64,000 nt of DNA. Origin: Vibrio echinoideorum. Lineage in GTDB: Bacteria > Pseudomonadota > Gammaproteobacteria > Enterobacterales > Vibrionaceae. The notes under the pieces were generated by a model. It was not told the origin of the DNA and searched no databases. It saw only the letters and a program-made list of their open reading frames with translations. Below are positions 14,551-52,249 of the stretch, piece by piece (positions within the stretch are counted from its first letter, which is position 1; every line of letters starts with the position of its first letter). The DNA lies in NCBI RefSeq assembly GCF_024347455.1, contig NZ_AP025483.1, forward strand, positions 310,001 through 374,000. Reading direction: 5' to 3'. The position numbers and the translations under genes were made by a program.

Positions 14551-14645
14551 CTTTTGCGTGCAAAAGAAGTAGTATGCCGCAGCGTATCCATCACGGGCTT
14601 TGCTGCGGATAATTCTTTTATGAACCCCTTAGGAGTGAATAATGG
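14551..14645 (+). ncRNA. Alpha operon leader (S4-binding pseudoknot)
   Basis: The leader has the elements of the known alpha-operon ribosome-binding-site pseudoknot. These are a hairpin CTTTTGC-GT-GCAAAAG (14551-14566), a GCCGCAGC strand (14576-14583) complementary to GCTGCGG (14602-14608), and AAAAGAA complementary to TTCTTTT just upstream of the rpsM start. In E. coli, S4 binding traps this structure and represses rpsM, rpsK, rpsD and rplQ. The call rests on recalled similarity plus visible complementarity. Confidence 0.75.
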
Positions 14646-14998
14646 CCCGTATAGCCGGCATTAACATTCCTGATCATAAGCATTCTGTAATTGCACTTAC
14701 TGCAATCTACGGTATTGGTAAAACTCGCTCTCAAGCTATTCTAGCTGAAGTGGGTATTGCTGAAGATGCTAAGATCAGTGAACTAACTGAAGAGCAGATC
14801 GATCAACTGCGTGATGGTGTAGCTAAATACACTGTAGAAGGTGATCTACGTCGTGAAGTATCGATGAACATCAAGCGTCTTATGGACCTTGGCTGTTACC
14901 GCGGTCTTCGTCATCGTCGCAGTCTACCACTACGTGGACAGCGTACTAAAACCAACGCTCGCACCCGTAAGGGTCCGCGCAAGCCGATCAAGAAATAG
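14642..14998 (+). CDS. rpsM: Ribosomal protein S13
   Basis: Small-subunit head protein that contacts P-site tRNA and L5. It has 118 residues, the E. coli length, beginning [14 protein letters not shown], with the conserved [17 protein letters not shown] and a basic C-terminus. It starts just downstream of the S4-responsive leader. rpsK follows after 19 nt. Confidence 0.98.
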
Positions 14999-20743: not shown

Positions 20744-21195
20744 TACTTTTCTAATCTCATATCTACATGGGGAATATCATCTTCCAGATACATCTCTGAG
20801 ATAGTTTTGAACCCGTGGTTCGCATAGAAGTGTTCAAGATGCTGTTGTGCTCCTATATCGATGGTCGTCTTAGGCCAAAGAGTCTCACAGCGCATCAATG
20901 CTTCTGTTATTAGCTGATGCCCTAAACCATTACCTCTTGCAGATTGTTTAGTCGCAACTCGGCCAATGCTTGTATTGTCGTAACTGGCGCCTGGTGGTAA
21001 TAAACGTGCACATGCCACTAACTCTTCATTGGCGTAGCCAAGTAAGTGATGGACACCTGCGAGTGTATCTTTACCGTCGAGCTCTGGATAGGGGCAAGTT
21101 TGCTCAACCACAAATACATCAACTCGTAATCTAAGTAGTTGATAAAGCTGTTGTGTTGAAAGTTCAGAGAAAGGAATTGAGTGCCAAGTGATCAT
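20743..21195 (-). CDS. elaA: ElaA-family GNAT acetyltransferase
   Basis: A 150-residue N-acetyltransferase. It begins WHSIPFSELSTQQLYQLLRL with the ElaA hallmark VFVVEQTCPYPELDG, and has the acetyl-CoA loop RGNGLG at 87-92. The physiological substrate of ElaA is unclear. It is the first gene of a two-gene unit with the EamA transporter, joined by a one-base overlap. Confidence 0.88.
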   Translation of the reverse strand: MITWHSIPFSELSTQQLYQLLRLRVDVFVVEQTCPYPELDGKDTLAGVHHLLGYANEELVACARLLPPGASYDNTSIGRVATKQSARGNGLGHQLITEALMRCETLWPKTTIDIGAQQHLEHFYANHGFKTISEMYLEDDIPHVDMRLEK

Positions 21196-21252
21196 GTTTA
21201 CATCCAGAGATTATCGATGCTCTGAATGTACTATGTGCGATGATTATTGGCA

Positions 21253-21819
21253 TTAACTATTGTTAATTCGACCTTTAATTCTGCTCAGACTGATCGCGGT
21301 TATACCTAGGTAAGCCGCAATTTGGTTGTCGTTCAAGCGCTGCTCAAGATCGGGGTAGTGTTCACAGAACAGTTGGTAACGTTGCTCTGGGGTATAGAGC
21401 AGCATAAAGCGTTCTTTGTTTTCTTTATGCATTAGCTGAGTTTCTAACAACTTTAAATACAAAAGGTTGTTTGATGCGCGCCATTCGATAACGGCGTTCA
21501 TTGGTAGCTCTAACAGTGTTATTGGTGTGAGTGTTTCTAGTAGGTAAGGGGACGCTTGGTTCTTTATCAAACTCTCAAAGCCGATGATCCAGTCTTGCTC
21601 CCAATAGAACTCTTTGCTGTATTGCTTACCGTCGTCTGTGAGGTAGCAAGCATGGCACAAGCCTTCAAGTACAAAGTAGATTGAGCTCGCCATTTCTCCT
21701 TGATTGATGAGGATATGTCTTGTTGGCAGTTCAAGCGGTTTCGCGACGGCTAATAGAGATTCAATCTGACTTTGAGAGAAGTCGAAGCTTTGTAGTTGTT
21801 CGATAAAAGAGGTGTGCAT
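21253..21819 (-). CDS. Crp/Fnr-family transcription regulator
   Basis: A 188-residue regulator with an N-terminal cyclic-nucleotide-type beta-roll (about residues 25-115) and a short C-terminal helix-turn-helix (NDNQIAAYLGITAISLSRIK, 163-182). The classical Crp cAMP-contact residues and the Fnr cysteine cluster are not evident, so the signal is unknown. It lies 71 bp downstream of the olsF-like gene on the same strand, with an 11-bp inverted repeat in that gap that could be its own operator. It may control the neighbouring operon, but nothing in the sequence proves this. Confidence 0.85.
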   Translation of the reverse strand: MHTSFIEQLQSFDFSQSQIESLLAVAKPLELPTRHILINQGEMASSIYFVLEGLCHACYLTDDGKQYSKEFYWEQDWIIGFESLIKNQASPYLLETLTPITLLELPMNAVIEWRASNNLLYLKLLETQLMHKENKERFMLLYTPEQRYQLFCEHYPDLEQRLNDNQIAAYLGITAISLSRIKGRINNS

Positions 21820-21834
21820 GAAAATAACCTAACC

Positions 21835-21866
21835 CAAATAAGTGCCGAAATCATCGCACTTATTTG
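21835..21866. repeat. 11-bp inverted repeat before the Crp/Fnr-like gene
   Basis: CAAATAAGTGC (21835-21845) and GCACTTATTTG (21856-21866) are a perfect inverted repeat with a 10-nt spacer, ending 16 bp from the regulator's start codon. There is no T tract on the minus strand, so an operator is more likely than a terminator. Confidence 0.6.
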
Positions 21867-21890
21867 AGTGTAGGTACAGAGCAGGCGAAA

Positions 21891-23645
21891 TCAACGTCGA
21901 GCGTGCTGTTCTAGATAATCTTGAGCGAGGTCTCTTCCCATGTATTTACCTAGGGTTTTCAATGGTACTTTCTTGAGATTAACCACAATCAAGCCATCCA
22001 GAGCATCATTAAATGAAGGGTCGACGTTAAAACACACCAGCTTACCGTTCATTCCAAGGTATTGGCGCAATAAGACAGGTAGGCCTTTTCCTTGCTCCAT
22101 ACGGGCCAATACTTTTGACAGCAGAGGTACACTTGCTAGTGAAGAGAGCAGGTGGTTTTGCCAGAACACATTATTACTGGTATTGAGTGGTGATGAAGGA
22201 GATACCAGATTCGCTTTTTGTTCATCGTAATGATGTATGGATAAGGTGGTCGCTATTAATAAACGCGCATTGTGGCTGTAATCATTACTGATACTGACCG
22301 GACCAAACAAATGGGTATATTGAGGGTGGCGATATACAAAGGCCGCGATGCCTTTCCATAAGAGCAACAGTGAATTAAGACTCTTCTGATAAGGCTTACT
22401 CACTACTGAGCGTCCAAGTTCAATACTGTTATCTAAGGTGTCAATGAACTCTTGATTGTAGTTAAACAGGCTACGAGAGTAGAGCTTATCAAGCCCGTGT
22501 TCTGCGATTAGCTTGTCGACCATACCAAGTCGGTAAGCGCCCACTAACTCAGCCTTGGTTTTGTTCCACACAAACAGTTGATGGTAGTAAAGGTCATACT
22601 CATCTAAGTCACAGGCAAGTCCGCTGCCTTCTCCGACTTCTCGGAAACTCTCTTCTCTCACTCGACCAATTTCTCGCATCAAGTTGGGGATTGATTGGCT
22701 TGGTGTGCAGTAGACTTCGAAGTCACCTTGCTCGAGCAGTTTCATCTCTTCAGGGAGCGAATTAATCTCGATTGACAATACTTCTGGTGAGATTGGCGTT
22801 ATCACTTGAGTGTCAAAAGATGGGGTATGGACTGCTGTGCTAAGGCTATCTTGTTGACTCATCAGATAGGTATTGAGTCGCAGATAGTTGACGATATCCA
22901 TCTCTTTTTCAAACGATTTTATCTCTGAATACGGAATCGATGAGCCAATAGAGATAGAGATAGTAGTCGCTTGCTTATTAAGAAGTTCGCGCCCGAGTAG
23001 AGCGGTTCTCAACAAAGGATGAACACGGCCAGCTTGATAGAAAAGCTCACTGTTTTTACCATTGATGAAGATAGGAACCGTAGTGGCTTGATGACGCTTG
23101 ACGAACTTGGCAACGGATTTGCTCCATTCGATGTCTGTCAGTGTTTTTGCCCCTTTACGGTAACTCGATACTTCGCCCGCAGGGAACACAATCAAAAGTC
23201 CGCCATCGGACAAGTGACGATTGGCATCTCGAATGGCTTTTGCATTGGTGCGTTTCGATTCTTTACTGTTAAATACATCGACACCGATGAAAAGATCATC
23301 CAGTTCAGGCAATCGCTTGAGCAACTCATTCGCCAACACCTTCACATCTTTCCTTACCGATCCTACGAGATCAGCAAGGATCACACCTTCAATCGCGCCA
23401 AGCGGGTGGTTAGCCACAATGACTACAGGTCCTTCTTCAAGGATATTATCAGTGGAGCCTGCTGAAACAGAATAGTCGATGTTCAATGCCGACAGGGTGT
23501 GGTGCATGAATTCAAAGCTAGATAACTCATTCGGTCTATCTTGATAGAGTTTGTCTAGCTTAGATAGCCCAGTTGCCCACTCGACAACAGACTCACCTAA
23601 GCCAAAAGGTGTGTAACGTGGTAAACGAAAAGGACTATCAATCAT
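21891..23645 (-). CDS. olsF: OlsF-type bifunctional acyltransferase (ornithine-lipid synthase)
   Basis: A 584-residue fusion. The N-terminal part (about 1-260) is a PlsC-like O-acyltransferase with NHPLGAIEG (79-87) and FPAGEVSS. The C-terminal part (about 300-580) is an OlsB-like N-acyltransferase with ELGRSVVSKPYQ, FGPVSISNDY and LRQYLGMNGKL. This order matches OlsF, which makes ornithine lipid by N-acylating ornithine and then O-acylating the product. Members are often annotated as putative hemolysins. In relatives ornithine lipids rise under phosphate limitation, but I saw no convincing Pho box. It is the last gene of a seven-gene unit, 12 nt after the DoxX-like gene. Confidence 0.8.
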   Translation of the reverse strand: MIDSPFRLPRYTPFGLGESVVEWATGLSKLDKLYQDRPNELSSFEFMHHTLSALNIDYSVSAGSTDNILEEGPVVIVANHPLGAIEGVILADLVGSVRKDVKVLANELLKRLPELDDLFIGVDVFNSKESKRTNAKAIRDANRHLSDGGLLIVFPAGEVSSYRKGAKTLTDIEWSKSVAKFVKRHQATTVPIFINGKNSELFYQAGRVHPLLRTALLGRELLNKQATTISISIGSSIPYSEIKSFEKEMDIVNYLRLNTYLMSQQDSLSTAVHTPSFDTQVITPISPEVLSIEINSLPEEMKLLEQGDFEVYCTPSQSIPNLMREIGRVREESFREVGEGSGLACDLDEYDLYYHQLFVWNKTKAELVGAYRLGMVDKLIAEHGLDKLYSRSLFNYNQEFIDTLDNSIELGRSVVSKPYQKSLNSLLLLWKGIAAFVYRHPQYTHLFGPVSISNDYSHNARLLIATTLSIHHYDEQKANLVSPSSPLNTSNNVFWQNHLLSSLASVPLLSKVLARMEQGKGLPVLLRQYLGMNGKLVCFNVDPSFNDALDGLIVVNLKKVPLKTLGKYMGRDLAQDYLEQHARR

Positions 23646-23657
23646 AATATAGCTACC

Positions 23658-24101
23658 TTATTGACTAAAGTTGTGTAGGAAACCGTCTTGATTCTTGAAA
23701 TCTTTAACACTTAAAAATGCACCGCATAGCCAGACTAGGCATGCCATGCCAAACAATAATCCGCCGTCATAACCGACAATTTCACCTGCCGCATTAAACT
23801 CAGGCATTTGGATACCTAATGGCGTAAATAAGTGGAAGAAAATCGCGCCACTCATAATCCCTACACTCATGATGGCACCAAGGCCATGCCACCGTGTGAA
23901 CAACAGAATGGCTGCAATCAGCTCAGCGCCACCAATTAAGTAGCCGCCAAATGAGCCAAACCAGCTTAGGCCTGACCATGTAGCTAGGGTGCCAAAGATA
24001 TGCTCAGTTTCGTATGAGCCGGTGAACTTAAAAAATAGCGACTGAATAAATACGAAAGCGATAAATGCCGCAGGGATATGCTTAGCTGGAGTCAATGTCA
24101 T
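23658..24101 (-). CDS. DoxX-like membrane protein
   Basis: A 147-residue inner-membrane protein with four hydrophobic segments (near residues 9-25, 45-68, 75-93 and 112-130) in the DoxX-like pattern (IGGAELIAAILLF, FFHLFTPLG). DoxX proteins are linked to quinone or thiosulfate oxidation or to redox stress in other bacteria, but this subgroup has no known function that I can name. It lies 10 nt after the YHS gene and 12 nt before the olsF-like gene. Confidence 0.75.
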   Translation of the reverse strand: MTLTPAKHIPAAFIAFVFIQSLFFKFTGSYETEHIFGTLATWSGLSWFGSFGGYLIGGAELIAAILLFTRWHGLGAIMSVGIMSGAIFFHLFTPLGIQMPEFNAAGEIVGYDGGLLFGMACLVWLCGAFLSVKDFKNQDGFLHNFSQ

Positions 24102-24111
24102 GATTATTCCT

Positions 24112-24549
24112 TTACTTGATCAGTTGCGGCCAAACGGTGTCGGCTTTTTGAATATGCTGTGCTCGGTCTTGTTCCCAACGTTGCTTAATCTCTTGGTCGT
24201 AGTTGAGGTACAGCTTGTTATCAACAATTGTCCATTGATTAGGGTCACCGGGTGCAAAGTCACTTTTTGCTGAAACAGCCCAAGCGCAATAGCCACCATA
24301 TTGAGGGGCATATTTTTCAGGATTATTAACAAATAAAGTCAGATTCTTTTCAGAAGAGAAATACCAGTTCGCACCTTTGTACTCTGTGCTGAAGTCTTTA
24401 CTGCCTTCAATAGGCTTACCTGAAGTGAAATAAGCGACGGTATCGTAGCCATCGAGCGCCTTGCTGCTAAAGAATCCGGTGTAGATTTCGTCTGCAGCAA
24501 ATACGTAAGGGCTAACAAGTAGCATGACCATGGTTAATAGTTTTCTCAT
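24112..24549 (-). CDS. Exported YHS-domain protein
   Basis: A 145-residue protein with a signal peptide (MRKLLTMVMLLVSPYVFA, then ADE) and a YHS-type domain (ALDGYDTVAYF, YKGANWYFSS, YGGYCAWAVS). YHS domains are short, often metal-associated modules found in heavy-metal enzymes; the role here is unknown. An in-frame ATG at 24561 directly abuts the upstream stop. I chose 24549 because GGAG lies 6 nt before it and the signal peptide then starts normally. Cotranscribed with the NRDE and DoxX-like genes. Confidence 0.8.
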   Translation of the reverse strand: MRKLLTMVMLLVSPYVFAADEIYTGFFSSKALDGYDTVAYFTSGKPIEGSKDFSTEYKGANWYFSSEKNLTLFVNNPEKYAPQYGGYCAWAVSAKSDFAPGDPNQWTIVDNKLYLNYDQEIKQRWEQDRAQHIQKADTVWPQLIK

Positions 24550-24561
24550 GATGGACTCCAT

Positions 24562-25311
24562 CTATAGATTGATTGCTGGTGATAAATCGAAGGTAAAACG
24601 CTGTTGATTTATCTGGCATGGTTTAATGGGTTCACAAGGCGAGCCGGGTGCGTAAAACATAGAGGCTTGGCCGTGTAGATTGCGTAAGTGTGTAAAGCTC
24701 ACGGTGTGCGCGTCTTCACGATGCATACAGGTCGCTAAATGAGGCTCTTCGCTGTGATGGTGAGAGTGAAACCTAAGCAAGTTCTGCTGATTCTTACCTG
24801 TCTCCATAAGCTGGTCATACTTAGCTTGTCGGTAGGCTTGCACTCGCAATAGTTCAACACCGGATGAGAATAACGGTGAATCGGTGTCGACTATTTTTTG
24901 TTGAATACCATCCCACATGAAGGCGATAACTAAACCATTGTTCTGAGTTAAATTCGGCGCGAAAGCCAACAAGGTAAATGGAGCAAAAGAGTGTAAGTCG
25001 AGCTTATGAAATGCCTCAGAAATCTGAGTAATGCTGTGACTCGATGATAAGTTCTTGAGCAACAAACCGCGGCTGATCAAAGGGCCAGCAGGAACGGTGC
25101 CTTGATAGTTGTTGAGCAGACATAGCGAAAGTCCGAACTCATTAATACTGATCCAGCTACCACCACCGGTTGGGTCGAGTGGCATGATGATATCGACGCC
25201 GTTGACTCGATATTGTTTAGGTGGCATCGCCAGTGCTCGCGTCTTTTGTTCATCACGATTAAAGAAAACTTGATAGCCATTTTCTTCAAGCAGCCAAGAT
25301 ACTGAACACAT
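24562..25311 (-). CDS. NRDE (TANGO2-like) family protein
   Basis: A 249-residue protein with the hallmark start MCSVSWLL (Cys2 possibly acting as an N-terminal nucleophile) and the NRDE motif at residues 18-21, then GGSWISINEFGLSLCLLNN. The family includes eukaryotic TANGO2, linked to lipid and heme handling; bacterial members are essentially uncharacterised. The C-terminal half has a His-rich patch (FHSHHHSEEPH). There is one base between the DinB-like stop and this start, and the YHS gene follows directly. Confidence 0.82.
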   Translation of the reverse strand: MCSVSWLLEENGYQVFFNRDEQKTRALAMPPKQYRVNGVDIIMPLDPTGGGSWISINEFGLSLCLLNNYQGTVPAGPLISRGLLLKNLSSSHSITQISEAFHKLDLHSFAPFTLLAFAPNLTQNNGLVIAFMWDGIQQKIVDTDSPLFSSGVELLRVQAYRQAKYDQLMETGKNQQNLLRFHSHHHSEEPHLATCMHREDAHTVSFTHLRNLHGQASMFYAPGSPCEPIKPCQINQQRFTFDLSPAINL

Positions 25312-25312
25312 T

Positions 25313-25855
25313 TTATTGCTCCCTCAGGTAGCTGCTAGTGGTAGGGGCATAACCAAAGGTGTTGCAGGTTTCGATATCTAAAAAGGTGGTGATCACCTTG
25401 ATCATCGCATAGTGATGATTGGCATGCAGGGCTGCAAAGGTGACCTCTCTTTCTAACGTTGAAGGCAGGCTGGCGAATACCTGGGTATCCATTGAAACTT
25501 CGGTTTGGATCATGATAGGCGTTTCGAGATCTCTGCGGTCTAATCGTTCAAGCCAGTTGATCACATAGTGGATCTCTTTCAACGCAATCGATCTGTCGTA
25601 TTCGACGGGATGACCACGACGACGAGTGTTGTAATCAACGGTCGCATTCTCTTTTAAAATTAAAGCGTGAAAAAGATCGAGCGTATGACGAGTATGCTCA
25701 CCAATAGAGCTTGTGACGTGCGGCTTTGCTCGTGTCAGATAGTCGCTGTCAGATATCGCTAACAAAAATTCTAGACCCTGATTTAATATTTCTACCGCTC
25801 CTGTGATACTAGGAGAGAAAGAAGTGAGGGCGCTCGGTTGGGCTATGGGGTTCAT
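25313..25855 (-). CDS. DinB-like putative metal-dependent protein
   Basis: A 180-residue, mostly helical protein resembling the DinB/YfiT four-helix bundle. Candidate metal ligands are H54 and H57 (IGEHTRH) and the H144/H147/H148 cluster (HANHHYA). Members include thiol-dependent transferases and hydrolases, and many have no known role. GAGG lies just before the start. It follows the ATP-grasp gene by 19 nt and abuts the NRDE gene. Family assignment is by pattern only. Confidence 0.7.
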   Translation of the reverse strand: MNPIAQPSALTSFSPSITGAVEILNQGLEFLLAISDSDYLTRAKPHVTSSIGEHTRHTLDLFHALILKENATVDYNTRRRGHPVEYDRSIALKEIHYVINWLERLDRRDLETPIMIQTEVSMDTQVFASLPSTLEREVTFAALHANHHYAMIKVITTFLDIETCNTFGYAPTTSSYLREQ

Positions 25856-25874
25856 TCATGGTCCTCGTACAAAG

Positions 25875-27008
25875 TTAGTCAGTGGTCGGATATTGTTGAA
25901 CAAGACGTCGCTCTTCTTGCCACGCAGCGAATAAGCTCTTGAAAGAAGGAGTCTTATGGCCTCGTTGTTTTTGCTGAGCGCCAATATCAAAAAGAATGCG
26001 GTATTGCAAAAGTAGCGTAGAAAATATCTCTCGCAGTGGTGTGTTGCGATCCCAGATATGCCCAGCCTCACTGCTTGCGCCATTGACCTCAAGGATCGTG
26101 AAATCCTCGCCGTTCATTAGGCTGTGCATGTCCTTAAACTTGACGTCGAGTCGGCCAAAGTGGAAGCCATCGAAGTCGTCGAATATCTCATCTAAGCGTT
26201 CGGTCAAAGCTTGGGTGATGTATTGATTGCCGTCTCGGAAGATACAGCCACGGCTATGACTACCTGCAAACGCGAGTTGGAATTCTTCACCCTCTGCGAG
26301 CACTTGATCTAATTTATCTTCATGCCTTGGCAGATATAGGTGACTAAGTTGCCCAGCACGCGGGCTATTTTCAATTAACTGTTTGAGTGTCGAGGAACCA
26401 TCACCCGTTACCATTGGCGAGTATTTGAGTGTGATCGAGATGATCTCGCCTTGCTTTTTATTTGGGTAGCGCACATAGAAAACGCCAGCTTCGGCTTGAT
26501 AAGGCGCCTTTTCTTGCAGTAGAAAGCGAGCATTATTTGGAAAAGATTCAACATATTGCTCAAGTTGATCTTGTGTGTTGATCAGCTTAACGCCAACGCC
26601 TCGACAGCCAAGATCCGGTTTCGCCACTATGGGGAAGTCAAGATCCGATTGTGTTAGCGCACTGAGTGCATCTTCGGTTTGTTTTTTACTATTAAGATCC
26701 GTTTTGGTTAGGGTAATAAACGGAGAGATCCAACGCTGACTTGATGATCCGGCAAGGCTTAATATTTCGTGTTTTGATTCACCTACCATGCCACTCAACT
26801 TAATGCTTGGGTTGGCGATGAGCGGCAGTGCCCAGTCAAAGTGCCGTAACCCTTGCATCAAGCTTTGAACCACTACTGGAGTGTAAAAAAACCAAGTCGG
26901 AAGGAATTCATAAGGAGAGACACTACGCACGGTATCTTTTTCAAGCAGAGGCATACCTGCATTGATTTGATGCGCAGGGATGATGCGAATATCTTTCGGT
27001 GAACTCAT
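25875..27008 (-). CDS. ATP-grasp ligase of unknown substrate
   Basis: A 377-residue protein with an ATP-grasp domain from about residue 125 to 340. It has the nucleotide-binding strand PIVAKPDLGCRGVGVK, the central QEKAPYQAEAGVFY region, and the metal-binding part GRLDVKF followed by ILEVNGASSEAGHIWD (a Glu-x-Asn pair). This layout is that of carboxylate-amine ligases such as D-Ala-D-Ala ligase, which form an amide through an acyl phosphate. The first 120 residues look family-specific. The start overlaps the dedA-like stop by 4 nt, so the two are coupled. Substrate unknown. Confidence 0.8.
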   Translation of the reverse strand: MSSPKDIRIIPAHQINAGMPLLEKDTVRSVSPYEFLPTWFFYTPVVVQSLMQGLRHFDWALPLIANPSIKLSGMVGESKHEILSLAGSSSQRWISPFITLTKTDLNSKKQTEDALSALTQSDLDFPIVAKPDLGCRGVGVKLINTQDQLEQYVESFPNNARFLLQEKAPYQAEAGVFYVRYPNKKQGEIISITLKYSPMVTGDGSSTLKQLIENSPRAGQLSHLYLPRHEDKLDQVLAEGEEFQLAFAGSHSRGCIFRDGNQYITQALTERLDEIFDDFDGFHFGRLDVKFKDMHSLMNGEDFTILEVNGASSEAGHIWDRNTPLREIFSTLLLQYRILFDIGAQQKQRGHKTPSFKSLFAAWQEERRLVQQYPTTD

Positions 27009-27592
27009 GATAATCCTCTAGAGTAGGTTTTATTCATTAATCGATTACCGATAAACAGTAAAGCGATGGCACACGGGATGACGATCCATTGATATTCAGA
27101 GGCTTGCAGCCACGCTGATGTCCCTAAATAGTAGATGGTAGAGAAGACAATGCCAGTCCAGATCGCAGTAGCACTAATGACAGCAAACAAAAAAGTAGGA
27201 AGTGGAATTGCGAAAAAGCCACTTAAGGTAAAGCCAACAGTGCGAAGCCCCGGGATAAAGCGGATGACAAAAAGGCTGCTGAACGCGTTCTGACGTAATT
27301 TAGTACGAAGCGAACGAAAGTACTTATTAGTGAGGGCTTTGTAACGAACGCCTCTGAAGTAACGTCCTGATTTTCCTAGGTAATAGAGTCCCAAGTCACC
27401 AGTGGCAATACCGATGAAAATGGCAAGCAACGCATATTGAGGAAGAATGAGCCCTTGAGTTGCTAAACCAGCTGCCGTAACAATCGCAAGATCTTCAAGC
27501 AGGTAAGAAAGCGCGATGATGCCAAACATCAGCCATAGCAACGACTCCTCCCCTGAATGTAACCATGCTTGAATGCTCTCGACGCTGCTCAT
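27005..27592 (-). CDS. DedA/VTT-family membrane protein
   Basis: A 195-residue integral membrane protein of the DedA superfamily. It shows the acidic early motif YLLEDLAIVTAAGL, the re-entrant glycine motif GDLGLYYLGKSGRYF and the arginine motif FVIRFIPGLRTVGF, followed by further hydrophobic segments. DedA proteins help move undecaprenyl phosphate or phospholipids across the membrane. It is the first gene of the seven-gene unit, with AAGGA 7 nt before its start and a palindromic region just upstream. Confidence 0.88.
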   Translation of the reverse strand: MSSVESIQAWLHSGEESLLWLMFGIIALSYLLEDLAIVTAAGLATQGLILPQYALLAIFIGIATGDLGLYYLGKSGRYFRGVRYKALTNKYFRSLRTKLRQNAFSSLFVIRFIPGLRTVGFTLSGFFAIPLPTFLFAVISATAIWTGIVFSTIYYLGTSAWLQASEYQWIVIPCAIALLFIGNRLMNKTYSRGLS

Positions 27593-27911
27593 TAAATATC
27601 CTTATCTATCCTATAAATGAATGGCTTAATGATCATTCATTGAGTGTAGTAAATTAAATAGACAGGAGGAGCGGGGAAAAACTTACAGGTGATGGAGGAT
27701 TTTTTGTACTTGCTTTGTTCGACCAGTACTGTGGAATGCGTTGTTTAAGTCAAGATTGAAGCGAAATGTTTGATATTTTAAAAGTGGATTTAACGAGAGT
27801 TTGTAGTTAAAAAACCCGGGCTTGGAGTGGGGGATCTTACATAAGAAAAGAAAAAGGCTGAGTCGTTAAACTCAGCCTTTAATAACATTAACTATTGATT
27901 AATAAAGCTAT
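27593..27911. other. Gap between cpdB and the dedA-led operon
   Basis: About 320 bp. It holds the bidirectional-looking terminator next to cpdB (27853-27880) and, close to the dedA-like start, an inverted repeat AATGAATG/CATTCATT (27616-27623, 27634-27641) whose spacer and right arm include the palindrome AATGATCATT (27628-27637). No consensus sigma-70 promoter was recognised for the operon, although it must lie here. Confidence 0.6.
27853..27880 (-). terminator. Terminator after cpdB
   Basis: An 11-bp perfect stem (AAAGGCTGAGT with ACTCAGCCTTT), with a 6-nt loop and TTTTTCTTTTC after it on the minus strand. It lies 32 bp beyond the cpdB stop. Confidence 0.85.
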
Positions 27912-29888
27912 CTATTTAGTTAAGTCAATTTGGTAAACAGCAAAACCAACATCGTCAGTCGCAACACGTTTCATCGGGTATTGACCTTTTTCTTTGATGA
28001 ATTCAGCCGCTTTGTCACTTGGAGATGTTTCAAAGCGAATATCTAGCTTGTTATCCGTTTTGATTGGAGCAAATGACCAATTGTTATCTGCGCTTGGGCT
28101 AACTTGACCTTGCTCTTTGCTTACGCGAGAGATGTAGTTAGCAAGAACAGTGCGGTTTTCATCTGGTGCATCAAATGCGATGAAATCTTCGCCTGTACCT
28201 GGGAACTTAGCACTGTATGCACGGTAGTTGTTGGTTGCGATCAAGAAGTCTTGCTTCATGTCGATTGGCTTACCTTGGTAAGTTAGGCCAACAATACGTT
28301 GAGACTCAGGGTTAACCACTTTACAGTTTGCATCGTATTTCGCAGGTTGTGTTACGTCGATTTGGTAATCAACACCGTCGATAACATCAAAGTTGTAAGT
28401 ACGGAAGTTATCCCACTCGATCAACTGTTGTGGTGCTGTCGAGTTAACATCAACTTGGTTGAACTGACCAGCTGAACACTCAAGCCACTCTTGTACTTCG
28501 TGACCCGTTACCTTCATTGCGACTAACGTGTTCGGGTAAAGGTATAAATCGGCTGCGTTACGGAACGTTAGTTGACCTGATTCCACTTCAGTGAAGTTAG
28601 CTGGGTCATTTTTACGACCGCCGGCTTTAAAAGGCGCTGCCGCTGACAATACTGGAATACCGTCTAGGTCTGGGTCACCTTGGATGAACTGTTCTACGTA
28701 ATCTTTCTGTGCAAGGTTAACAATTTGTACTGTTGGATCGTCTTGTACTAGAGATAGGAAGCTGTACATCACGTCGTCTGCTTTACCAATAGGTTGGTTA
28801 ACAAACTCACGAGTACCTGCATGGTCTTTTTCTAGTGCCGTTACGATACCTTCATCTGCAGCAGCAAGCGATTTCTTCTCGATCTTGTCGTAGATAGGGC
28901 GTGCTTCTGATTGGCCTTTAACGACTTCCCACTTACCGTCTTTTTGTGCAAGTGTTAGGTCCATAACACCAACGTGGCTACCCCAACGACCAGGCATTAC
29001 TGCCGCAACGCCATTCATTGTGCCCGTTTCGTTGTCGATGCCTTGAATGTCATCAAAACCTTTACCTGGGAATACTGCATGAGAGTGGCCGAATGCGATT
29101 GCATCGATACCATCTACTTCAGAGAGGTAGAACGTTGAGTTCTCTTCGCCATTTTTGTAAGGGTCAGTTGATACGCCTGAGTGAGGGATAGCAACGATAA
29201 CTTCAGCGCCTTCTGCTTTCATTTGAGGCACTAGCTCGTTAGCTGTCTCAATGATGTCACGAGCGATCACTTTGCCTTCAAGGTTCTTCTTATCCCACGT
29301 CATGATTTGTGGTGGAACGAAACCGATGTAGCCGACTTTTACTTCATGCTCTACGCCAGCAGTATCTTCGAACGTATGCGTCTTGATGATGTAAGGCGTG
29401 AAGTAGTGTTCTTTGGTTTCTGCGTCGTAAACGTTGGCACTGATGTATGGGAAATCAGCATCGTTGATAGACTCTTCTAGGAACTCAAGACCGTAGTTGA
29501 ATTCGTGGTTACCTAGGTTTGCAGCGTCGTAGCTTAGTTGATTCATTGCTTTGTACGCAGGGTGAACTTCACCAGCTTCGATGCCTTTGTCTGCCATGTA
29601 GTCACCCATTGGGCTACCTTGCAGCAAATCACCGTTATCAACTAATACGCTATTGGTTACTTCGTTTTGAGCTTCTTTTACTAGAGTTGCAGTACGTGCT
29701 AAGCCGATTTTTTTCGATGGCTTGTCTTTGTAGTAGTCGTAATCCATTAGGTTGGTATGGATGTCCGTCGTTTCTACGACACGTAGTTTAATCACTTCAT
29801 CGGTATCTGGTGTTGTTGTGCAGCCTGCTAAAGTCAAACCAAGACCTGCAAGTACAGCCAATGATAAAGGTTTCATTGCAACTTTCAT
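27912..29888 (-). CDS. cpdB: 2',3'-cyclic-nucleotide phosphodiesterase / 3'-nucleotidase, lipoprotein
   Basis: Periplasmic-side enzyme that opens 2',3'-cyclic nucleotides and dephosphorylates 3'-nucleotides, allowing use of external nucleotides. The frame is open further upstream, but the ATG at 29888 has GGAG 7 nt before it and gives a signal with the lipobox LAGC (Cys23), so the protein is probably a lipoprotein rather than freely periplasmic as in E. coli. It has 658 residues. The metallophosphatase motifs are [28 protein letters not shown] and [10 protein letters not shown], followed by the 5'-nucleotidase C-terminal domain ([12 protein letters not shown]). It is divergent from cysD; 3'-nucleotidase activity on PAP-like products would suit this neighbour, but that is inference. 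Confidence 0.9.
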
Positions 29889-52039: not shown

Positions 52040-52085
52040 TCCAAACTTGATAGCTTATTGTTAAAATTCGAATTACAATTCTGAA

Positions 52086-52200
52086 CACTCATCGGGGAGC
52101 GAACCATTCAAATAATGAATGCGAGCTGAGATCAAGCAAGTGCTTGGGACCCGTAAACCTGAACCAGATAATGCTGGCGTAGGAATTGAGTTAGGAACAA
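52086..52200 (+). ncRNA. TPP riboswitch controlling thiBPQ
   Basis: The aptamer shows the conserved GGGGAGC, GCTGAGA (thi box), GGGACCC, GAACC and the CAGATAATGCTGGCGTAGGAA block in order between 52093 and 52185. P1 can form from ACTCA (52087-52091) and TGAGT (52187-52191). A -10-like TACAAT (52074-52079) suggests a start close to 52086. TPP binding is expected to turn off thiamine uptake. Confidence 0.93.
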
Positions 52201-52249
52201 CTTCTACCGTTCTCCTCCCTCAAACCTGTGCCGCTCAGACCATGGAGAG
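52186..52249 (+). promoter_or_regulatory. Candidate riboswitch expression platform before thiB
   Basis: TTCTCC (52210-52215) can pair with the Shine-Dalgarno GGAGAG (52244-52249). It can instead be trapped in a hairpin formed by TTGAG...AGGAAC (52186-52198) with GTTC...CTCAA (52209-52223). The TTGAG strand is part of P1, so the two states are mutually exclusive. This indicates translational control. Read by eye only. Confidence 0.5.

Follow-up and report, generated by a model that had tools for sequence, protein, structure and literature searches.

OlsF-type fusion proteins make ornithine lipid. Proteins of the DedA family move lipids across the membrane and have also been implicated in undecaprenyl phosphate recycling. 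Among the ATP-grasp enzymes, cyanophycin synthetase (CphA), LysX/ArgX and RimK activate the carboxylate of a growing chain or carrier, and amines other than taurine are also coupled by members of this fold. Taurine itself is found in cerilipin, the tauro-ornithine lipid of Gluconobacter cerinus described by the chemistry of the 1970s, in which it is amide-bound to the carboxyl of ornithine lipid. We know of no gene for this taurine step, or for any head-group extension of amino-acid lipids.

The locus considered here lies in a window of 64,000 nucleotides, the whole stretch analysed, from the marine bacterium Vibrio echinoideorum. It contains seven minus-strand genes, which probably form an operon for making, modifying and moving an amino-acid-containing membrane lipid, with the ATP-grasp protein amidating the free carboxyl of the lipid and the DedA protein handling the product.

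Organization of the operon and its upstream region

The features of the unit, in the direction of transcription, are as follows.

27853..27880, minus strand: terminator-like hairpin of cpdB, the gene next upstream; marks the upstream limit of the unit
27659..27687, minus strand: promoter-like motif TGTAA-N19-GTCTA, conserved
27616..27641, minus strand: inverted repeat AATGAATG-N10-CATTCATT upstream of DedA, partly and imperfectly conserved
27005..27592, minus strand: membrane protein of the DedA family with a VTT domain, 195 aa; opens the unit
25875..27008, minus strand: predicted ATP-grasp carboxylate-amine ligase, 377 aa; overlaps the DedA gene by 4 nt
25313..25855, minus strand: DinB-like protein, 180 aa; gap to the ATP-grasp gene 19 nt
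24562..25311, minus strand: NRDE/TANGO2-like protein, 249 aa; gap to the DinB-like gene 1 nt
24112..24561, minus strand: YHS-domain protein, 149 aa; gap to the NRDE gene 0 nt
23658..24101, minus strand: DoxX/MauE-like small membrane protein (sub-threshold), 147 aa; gap to the YHS gene 10 nt; optional member
21891..23645, minus strand: OlsF-like bifunctional acyltransferase, 584 aa; gap to the DoxX-like gene 12 nt
21827..21875, minus strand: terminator-like hairpin after the OlsF-like gene (-25.3 kcal/mol, z -7.3); downstream border of the unit

The seven tightly packed minus-strand reading frames listed by the first-pass annotation are all intact, lie where it had placed them and are flanked by terminators on both sides. 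Chance packing of open reading frames is ruled out by the conservation of the gene set. A foreign base composition was rejected, the GC content of the operon (0.452 versus 0.444 for the window) giving no signal.

The motif TGTAA-N19-GTCTA upstream of DedA resembles promoters of the ECF-sigma type. It is kept in six of eight aligned relatives, with one change in locus L091, and is absent in L014. The pattern TGNAA-N19-GTCT, which was chosen post hoc, occurs in 11 of 21 upstream regions, against 32 of 4200 stretches taken at random. In the whole genome the strict pattern matches once, and allowing up to one mismatch gives seven sites (its own included) versus five for the reversed control, so that no regulon was found for the motif. 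A scan of positions 21000-28200 gave no sigma-70 promoter on the minus strand.

The ATP-grasp protein and its DedA partner

The label of ATP-grasp protein is borne out by the predicted structure, although the sequence misses the Pfam cut-offs (PF02222, 20.4 versus 27 bits; PF07478, 19.3 versus 24 bits). The AF2 model has a pLDDT of 95.8 and an ATP-grasp fold; its nearest neighbours are cyanophycin synthetase, LysX/ArgX, glutathione synthetase and RimK, and as modelled the fold is closest to the carboxylate-amine ligases. K130, E173, R286, D288, E307 and N309, which we take to be the ATP- and metal-binding residues, are invariant in an alignment of 57 rows. Alignments with CphA, LysX/ArgX, RimK and glutathione synthetase show 15-19% identity. 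Unlike these enzymes, the protein is a single chain of 377 residues with its own hydrophobic N-terminal helix, is linked or fused to DedA, and is linked to lipid acyltransferases.

The DedA protein passes the Pfam VTT model (PF09335, 46.7 bits, cut-off 33.9) as DedA lipid transporters do, and has Arg, Gly and Pro positions that are invariant in 34 aligned rows. It differs from those transporters in that its operonic or fused partner is an ATP-grasp ligase; we know of no described DedA protein with such a partner. In other bacteria the two are sometimes joined in one chain, with the VTT match ahead of the ATP-grasp part in all eight long reading frames scanned. The model of one natural fusion has two mostly confident domains (pLDDT 88.7, pTM 0.75), and the stretch between them is poorly predicted; their relative orientation was not readable from the model.

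The OlsF-like protein and the other members

The OlsF-like protein has the two-domain layout of OlsF, with a PlsC-like N-terminal half (Acyltransf_2, 75.3 bits) and a GNAT C-terminal half (Acetyltransf_5, 71.6 bits), both above cut-off, but its match to the OlsF equivalog model NF052615 (residues 36-569) scores 431.4 bits, short of the cut-off of 620. On the same model the further full-length OlsF-like copies that were scanned, whether in operons or standalone, reach 375-434 bits, and three divergent standalone copies reach 819-887 bits. The window protein belongs to a clade separate from canonical OlsF, represented by a Salinivibrio copy at 886.9 bits, and the D/E position of the acyltransferase motif NHPxGxxD/E is Glu in this clade and Asp in canonical OlsF. 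By analogy with OlsF the protein may make ornithine lipid or a similar amino-acid lipid; given the low equivalog score and the Glu-for-Asp exchange, the amino acid may not be ornithine. With the protein as query, a search of the genome of the window (G000) for a further OlsF returned only the query itself; PF13444 likewise gives one match in this genome at E 1e-8. A sequence search of the PDB with the OlsF-like protein gave no match.

For the other members, the family labels proposed earlier fared unevenly: TANGO2-NRDE and YHS pass their models, as do DedA/VTT and both OlsF-type domains, whereas 'DinB' and 'DoxX' are sub-threshold labels. The NRDE protein scores 31.6 bits on PF05742 (cut-off 22.6), and Cys2 and N18-R19-D20-E21 are invariant in 25 of 25 rows. 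The YHS protein scores 166.2 bits on NF041384, a (seleno)protein family (cut-off 70); Cys92 is invariant in 23 rows, and the N-terminus looks signal-like by eye. Two of its relatives were flagged for a TGA inside the match and neither supports selenocysteine: in one the TGA falls close to the C-terminus, at a place occupied by Trp in the window protein, and in the other it precedes the start. The DinB-like protein scores 19.8 bits on PF12867 (cut-off 24.8), its counterpart in locus L039 scores 22.7 bits on PF05163 (cut-off 23), and that in L013 has no match to the Pfam DinB models; a set of histidines (H57, H144, H147 and H148) is conserved in 30 rows. The DoxX-like protein reaches 19.4 bits on MauE (cut-off 27) and 12.1 bits on DoxX_2 (cut-off 26.3).

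Distribution and gene order

The seven-gene set is common to many bacteria, beyond one strain. Among 86 loci holding a relative of the ATP-grasp protein, all seven genes occur in identical order in 11 and the same order without DoxX in another 11, and further loci have subsets of the set in reshuffled arrangement. The search for the same order in other genomes, proposed by the first-pass annotation, thus clearly removes the objection that the set might be confined to this strain, as it is kept across genera and classes. At eight of the 86 loci the ATP-grasp gene has no operon partner at all nearby, and at three more its sole partner is a DedA gene on the opposite strand; several of these partnerless or DedA-only loci are on short contigs.

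Within the Vibrionaceae the ATP-grasp gene is patchily distributed (85 of 197 genomes), and cpdB adjoins the unit in five of the 86 loci (L008-L011 and L014), which fits the accessory unit suggested earlier. The Marinomonas OlsF copies nest inside the Vibrio operon clade and, together with this patchiness, suggest that the unit moves as a block. The DinB-like gene is present in 82 of the 197 genomes, with at most 4 kb separating it from the ATP-grasp gene in each case (82/82 copies), and in none of the 112 genomes without that gene; in this family it appears to be a dedicated partner. Relatives of the YHS protein are found in 77 of 85 genomes with the ATP-grasp gene versus 20 of 112 without it. 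In a class-level sample of 276 genomes there are six ATP-grasp matches above 170 bits, including the window's own and one with two internal TAG stops, and six weaker matches (41-51 bits), whose reading frames of 582-951 aa are taken to be cyanophycin-synthetase-like.

Ornithine-lipid-type acyltransferases accompany the ATP-grasp gene in several layouts, with OlsF or OlsB adjoining or elsewhere; one or the other is near it in 43 of the 86 loci, in many unrelated arrangements. The gene also tracks the presence of an N-acyltransferase in the Vibrionaceae. The counts of 47/47 and 18/18 are weak alone because PF13444 genes are widespread (244 of 397 phylum genomes), and seven of the 18 belong to the window's own genus.

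Proposed mechanism and alternatives

From the chemistry of its family, the OlsF-like protein would use a 3-hydroxy-fatty acid to N-acylate ornithine, or an amino acid like it, and O-acylate the product. The ATP-grasp protein, which a hydrophobic helix near its N-terminus (residues 38-56) probably anchors to the inner side of the membrane, would then phosphorylate the free carboxyl of the lipid and join it to a small amine, the amide bond enlarging the head group; the fold, the conserved residues and the gene linkage suggest this step. The product would pass to DedA to be flipped or transported, as the fusions and the biology of DedA proteins suggest. The roles of the remaining members are guesses: editing of the head group could fall to the NRDE protein, as an N-terminal-Cys amidase or transferase, and a metal or redox accessory set could be made up of the DinB-like, YHS and DoxX-like proteins. 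The earlier proposal of an amino-lipid unit, in which the ATP-grasp enzyme adds an amino acid or amine and DedA moves the lipid, has in part gained support from the conserved and reshuffled gene sets, the fusions, the carboxylate-amine-ligase fold and, in lineages that are not related, the OlsB or OlsF genes beside that of the ATP-grasp protein. The support is partial in that the OlsF-like protein misses the equivalog cut-off, 'DinB' and 'DoxX' are sub-threshold labels, and the NRDE, DinB-like, YHS and DoxX-like proteins are tied to the pathway by linkage. The loci that have the ATP-grasp gene but lack its partners speak against the proposal.

The ATP-grasp enzyme could instead activate a free amino acid and attach it to the delta-amino group of ornithine lipid, giving an aminoacylated lipid. 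This seems unlikely, as the best fold matches (CphA, LysX/ArgX and RimK) are enzymes that act on the carboxylate of the chain or carrier. An envelope-stress cassette, in which the OlsF-like protein and the DedA-ATP-grasp pair serve different ends and the substrate of the ATP-grasp enzyme is a peptide or cell-wall precursor rather than a lipid, would suit the conserved ECF-type motif, the link of DedA proteins to undecaprenyl phosphate and the gene beside the pair in Gluconobacter (see below), but the recurrence of OlsF or OlsB in so many unrelated layouts and the tracking of N-acyltransferase presence make it quite doubtful. It is very improbable that the genes form an ordinary operon with no joint pathway, whose members have stayed adjacent by chance or have hitch-hiked on horizontal transfer: the patchiness and the nested Marinomonas OlsF would fit such a unit, yet the set persists across classes despite its reshuffled order, DedA and the ATP-grasp protein are naturally fused, and the DinB-like gene was not found without the ATP-grasp gene in 197 genomes. 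This last reading is already disfavoured.

A possible link to tauro-ornithine lipid, and wider significance

If the carboxyl of the lipid is amidated as proposed, the amine would most likely be taurine, by analogy with cerilipin and with no feature of the sequence pointing to it. Taurine is the best candidate because Gluconobacter cerinus NBRC 3267, from whose species tauro-ornithine lipid is known, holds a DedA-ATP-grasp pair. Cerilipin is the kind of product expected from the operon. Speaking against the proposed pathway, the Gluconobacter pair does not adjoin an ols gene, and the OlsB-like protein of this organism scores under both OlsB cut-offs. By eye, the pair adjoins a gene resembling that of an undecaprenyl-pyrophosphatase.

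It is conceivable, if somewhat unlikely, that the DedA-ATP-grasp pair is the missing cerilipin machinery, the ligase joining taurine to ornithine lipid and forming a single membrane unit with a DedA flippase devoted to it; with this machinery present in Vibrionaceae, in other gammaproteobacteria, in acetic acid bacteria and in further groups, sulfonate-headed amino lipids would then be far commoner than thought. If the proposed mechanism is true, genes for the head-group extension of amino-acid lipids would be in hand, and a testable link, natural fusions included, would connect the widespread and poorly understood DedA family with a defined lipid. Many marine bacteria and acetic acid bacteria would be expected to have sulfonated or otherwise extended amino lipids, and cerilipin, an old orphan lipid, would become tractable by genetics.

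Operon Layout and Upstream Motif

The seven minus-strand reading frames described in the first-pass annotation are recovered with exact agreement. They encode DedA, the ATP-grasp protein (ATPg), a DinB-like protein, an NRDE/TANGO2 protein, a YHS protein, a DoxX/MauE-like membrane protein and an OlsF-like bifunctional acyltransferase. Bounded by the cpdB terminator on its upstream side and by a strong hairpin after its last gene, the unit likely forms a single predicted transcript with a promoter of its own. Features of the window are:

21891–27592, minus strand, seven-gene operon
21253–21819, Crp-like regulator gene (cyclic-nucleotide-binding domain), next gene downstream, beyond the hairpin
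52083–52202, plus strand, TPP riboswitch
14563–14674, plus strand, alpha-operon ribosomal protein leader

The Crp-like regulator, with GNAT and EamA genes, holds the same place beside the operon in loci L008–L011 and in Aliivibrio (L014). In 11 of 21 loci, spread over several genera, the motif TGNAA-N19-GTCT, which resembles ECF-sigma promoters, lies no more than 200 bases from DedA; it occurs in 32 of 4200 random stretches, a comparison that overstates the case because the motif was drawn from the same loci and the rows are related. A pattern search of the window's genome found no regulon for a motif of this type.

Conservation of the Gene Set

An ATPg alignment (A1) was used to find relatives in named genomes. 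Of 244 confirmed relatives the 80 best were kept, and with six plasmid loci added (28 plasmid records matched) these gave 86 loci (L002–L087), which were scored with queries from several lineages; a gene was near if it matched at E 1e-6 from about 4.5 kb upstream to 8 kb downstream. Because several contigs are short, the presence counts are lower bounds. The search for the seven families in the same order, proposed in the first-pass annotation, finds the complete set in 11 of the 86 loci.

Gene layouts in the 86 loci
DedA-ATPg-DinB-NRDE-YHS-DoxX-OlsF: 11
The same order minus DoxX: 11
DedA-ATPg-DinB-NRDE: 3 (2 from Salinivibrio)
ATPg-OlsF: 8
DedA-ATPg: 26
ATPg with OlsB: 5
ATPg alone: 8
ATPg with DedA on the opposite strand only: 3
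Remaining mixtures: 11

The mixtures include three loci with DoxX, OlsF and a divergent DinB on the other strand (Endozoicomonadaceae and one Oceanospirillales MAG), ATPg-OlsF-DinB-NRDE-YHS in Alginatibacterium, DedA-ATPg-DoxX in one Kordiimonas and one Eilatimonas, and DinB-NRDE-DedA-ATPg-OlsB at L068. Conservation of the set despite its varying order argues for a shared function. The Vibrio locus L145 (G399:C7:121500–128000) has only an ATPg piece (model positions 2–135) close to a shortened OlsF-like frame, and no DinB-like gene was found in its genome, an apparent case of operon decay.

In some loci DedA and ATPg are also fused. Nineteen frames longer than 430 aa end in an ATPg part (16 and 3 in two analyses), and some of them look like upstream frame extensions. 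In all eight scanned, which were chosen by eye (L004 from Azospirillum, L065, L073, L077, L079, L080, L101 and L104), a DedA/VTT match lies ahead of the ATPg part, above the Pfam cut-off of 33.9 in six and just below it in L065 (32.2) and L079 (29.6). They include MAGs labelled, as given, Bacteroidota and Lentisphaerae, and an Acidobacteriaceae MAG with a triple alpha/beta hydrolase-DedA-ATP-grasp fusion (L080:6231–9011). In L031 and L066, alpha/beta hydrolases are also encoded next to the unit.

Phylogenetic Profile

Among 197 Vibrionaceae genomes, ATPg is present in 85 and the N-acyltransferase family PF13444 in 143, the latter in 84 of 85 ATPg-positive versus 59 of 112 ATPg-negative genomes (Fisher 3e-15; the genomes are related and not independent). 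In the sole exception, G363, the assembly is fragmented and ATPg lies close to a contig end. At least 60 of the 85 have ATPg and the PF13444 gene no more than 7 kb apart, so this association is largely one operon counted repeatedly. DinB-like genes occur in 82 of the 197, always within 4 kb of ATPg (82/82) and in none of the 112 ATPg-negative genomes; YHS is less exclusive (77/85 versus 20/112). In a phylum sample of 397 genomes, PF13444 accompanies ATPg in 18 of 18 (7 from the window's genus) versus 226 of 379 without ATPg (p 2e-4). Among 50 ATPg-bearing genomes or records drawn from the 86 loci, mainly those without the full operon, all 47 genomes and one of the three plasmids contained PF13444. 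Because PF13444 is common, these tests support the link without proving it; stronger evidence comes from loci of unrelated layout in which the genes lie side by side.

Acyltransferase Partner and Candidate Amine

The window's OlsF-like protein and the ten further full-length copies scanned score 375–434 bits against the OlsF equivalog (NF052615, cut-off 620), versus 819–887 bits for the divergent standalone copies L119, L120 and L124; the standalone copies scanned from L106, L116, L122 and L125 also fall below the cut-off. At the acyltransferase motif, six OlsF-like rows read NHPxGxxEG and three canonical rows NHPxGSLDG. A tree of 50 sequences was built from 32 operon and 18 standalone copies and carries a warning of long branches; in it, L119, L120 and L124 separate from the rest, and most other standalone copies, some from ATPg-positive genomes, form subclades apart from operon copies. 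The operon copies are not a single clade (4 changes); standalone L125 groups with operon copy L123 with weak support, and Marinomonas operon copies nest among those of Vibrio, which suggests horizontal transfer. Standalone OlsF-like genes (L106–L125) occur in many ATPg-negative and some ATPg-positive vibrios.

The best evidence that the ATPg step would act on ornithine lipid itself comes from two genomes in which a module without its own OlsF coexists with a canonical enzyme: Salinivibrio G331, with OlsF at 886.9 bits (L120) and ATPg coordinates identical to those of L003, and G746, with OlsB at 324.8 bits (cut-off 320). OlsB-like N-acyltransferases adjoin ATPg in L005 (Variovorax) and L105 (a gammaproteobacterium).

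Nothing in the sequence names the amine. Taurine is a possible, though rather doubtful, candidate, put forward because Gluconobacter cerinus NBRC 3267 (L048), of the species from which the tauro-ornithine lipid cerilipin is reported, carries the DedA-ATPg pair and a single PF13444 gene, OlsB-like and below both OlsB cut-offs (277 versus 350 and 272 versus 320 bits). This argument is suggestive only, since the pair also occurs in other acetic acid bacteria (Saccharibacter, Asaia and Acetobacter), for which we know of no report of such a lipid.

Accessory Genes and Predicted Role

All 25 rows of the NRDE protein retain Cys2 and the NRDE tetrad, as would fit an N-terminal-nucleophile amidase; the DinB-like protein has a conserved His set compatible with metal binding, and the YHS protein one conserved Cys. 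In betaproteobacteria, ATPg is preceded by a gene for a haem-oxygenase-like iron enzyme (PF14518 in L081 and L084; by eye in L005), the cluster holds a methyltransferase in L081 and, by eye, in L005, and OlsB follows ATPg in L005 and L084. These regions (L081:1252–3377, L084:6083–6982 and L005:6170–8010) would represent another, putative tailoring set built around an unchanged core. The conserved residues and these neighbours make tailoring or redox roles plausible for the accessory genes.

The first-pass proposal that the unit makes and moves a modified amino-lipid is partly supported: it is strengthened by the adjacency of ATPg to acyltransferases in unrelated layouts and weakened by the sub-threshold score of the window's OlsF-like protein. 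As predicted from these gene families, the products of the operon most likely make an ornithine-type lipid, extend it through an amide bond and transport it.
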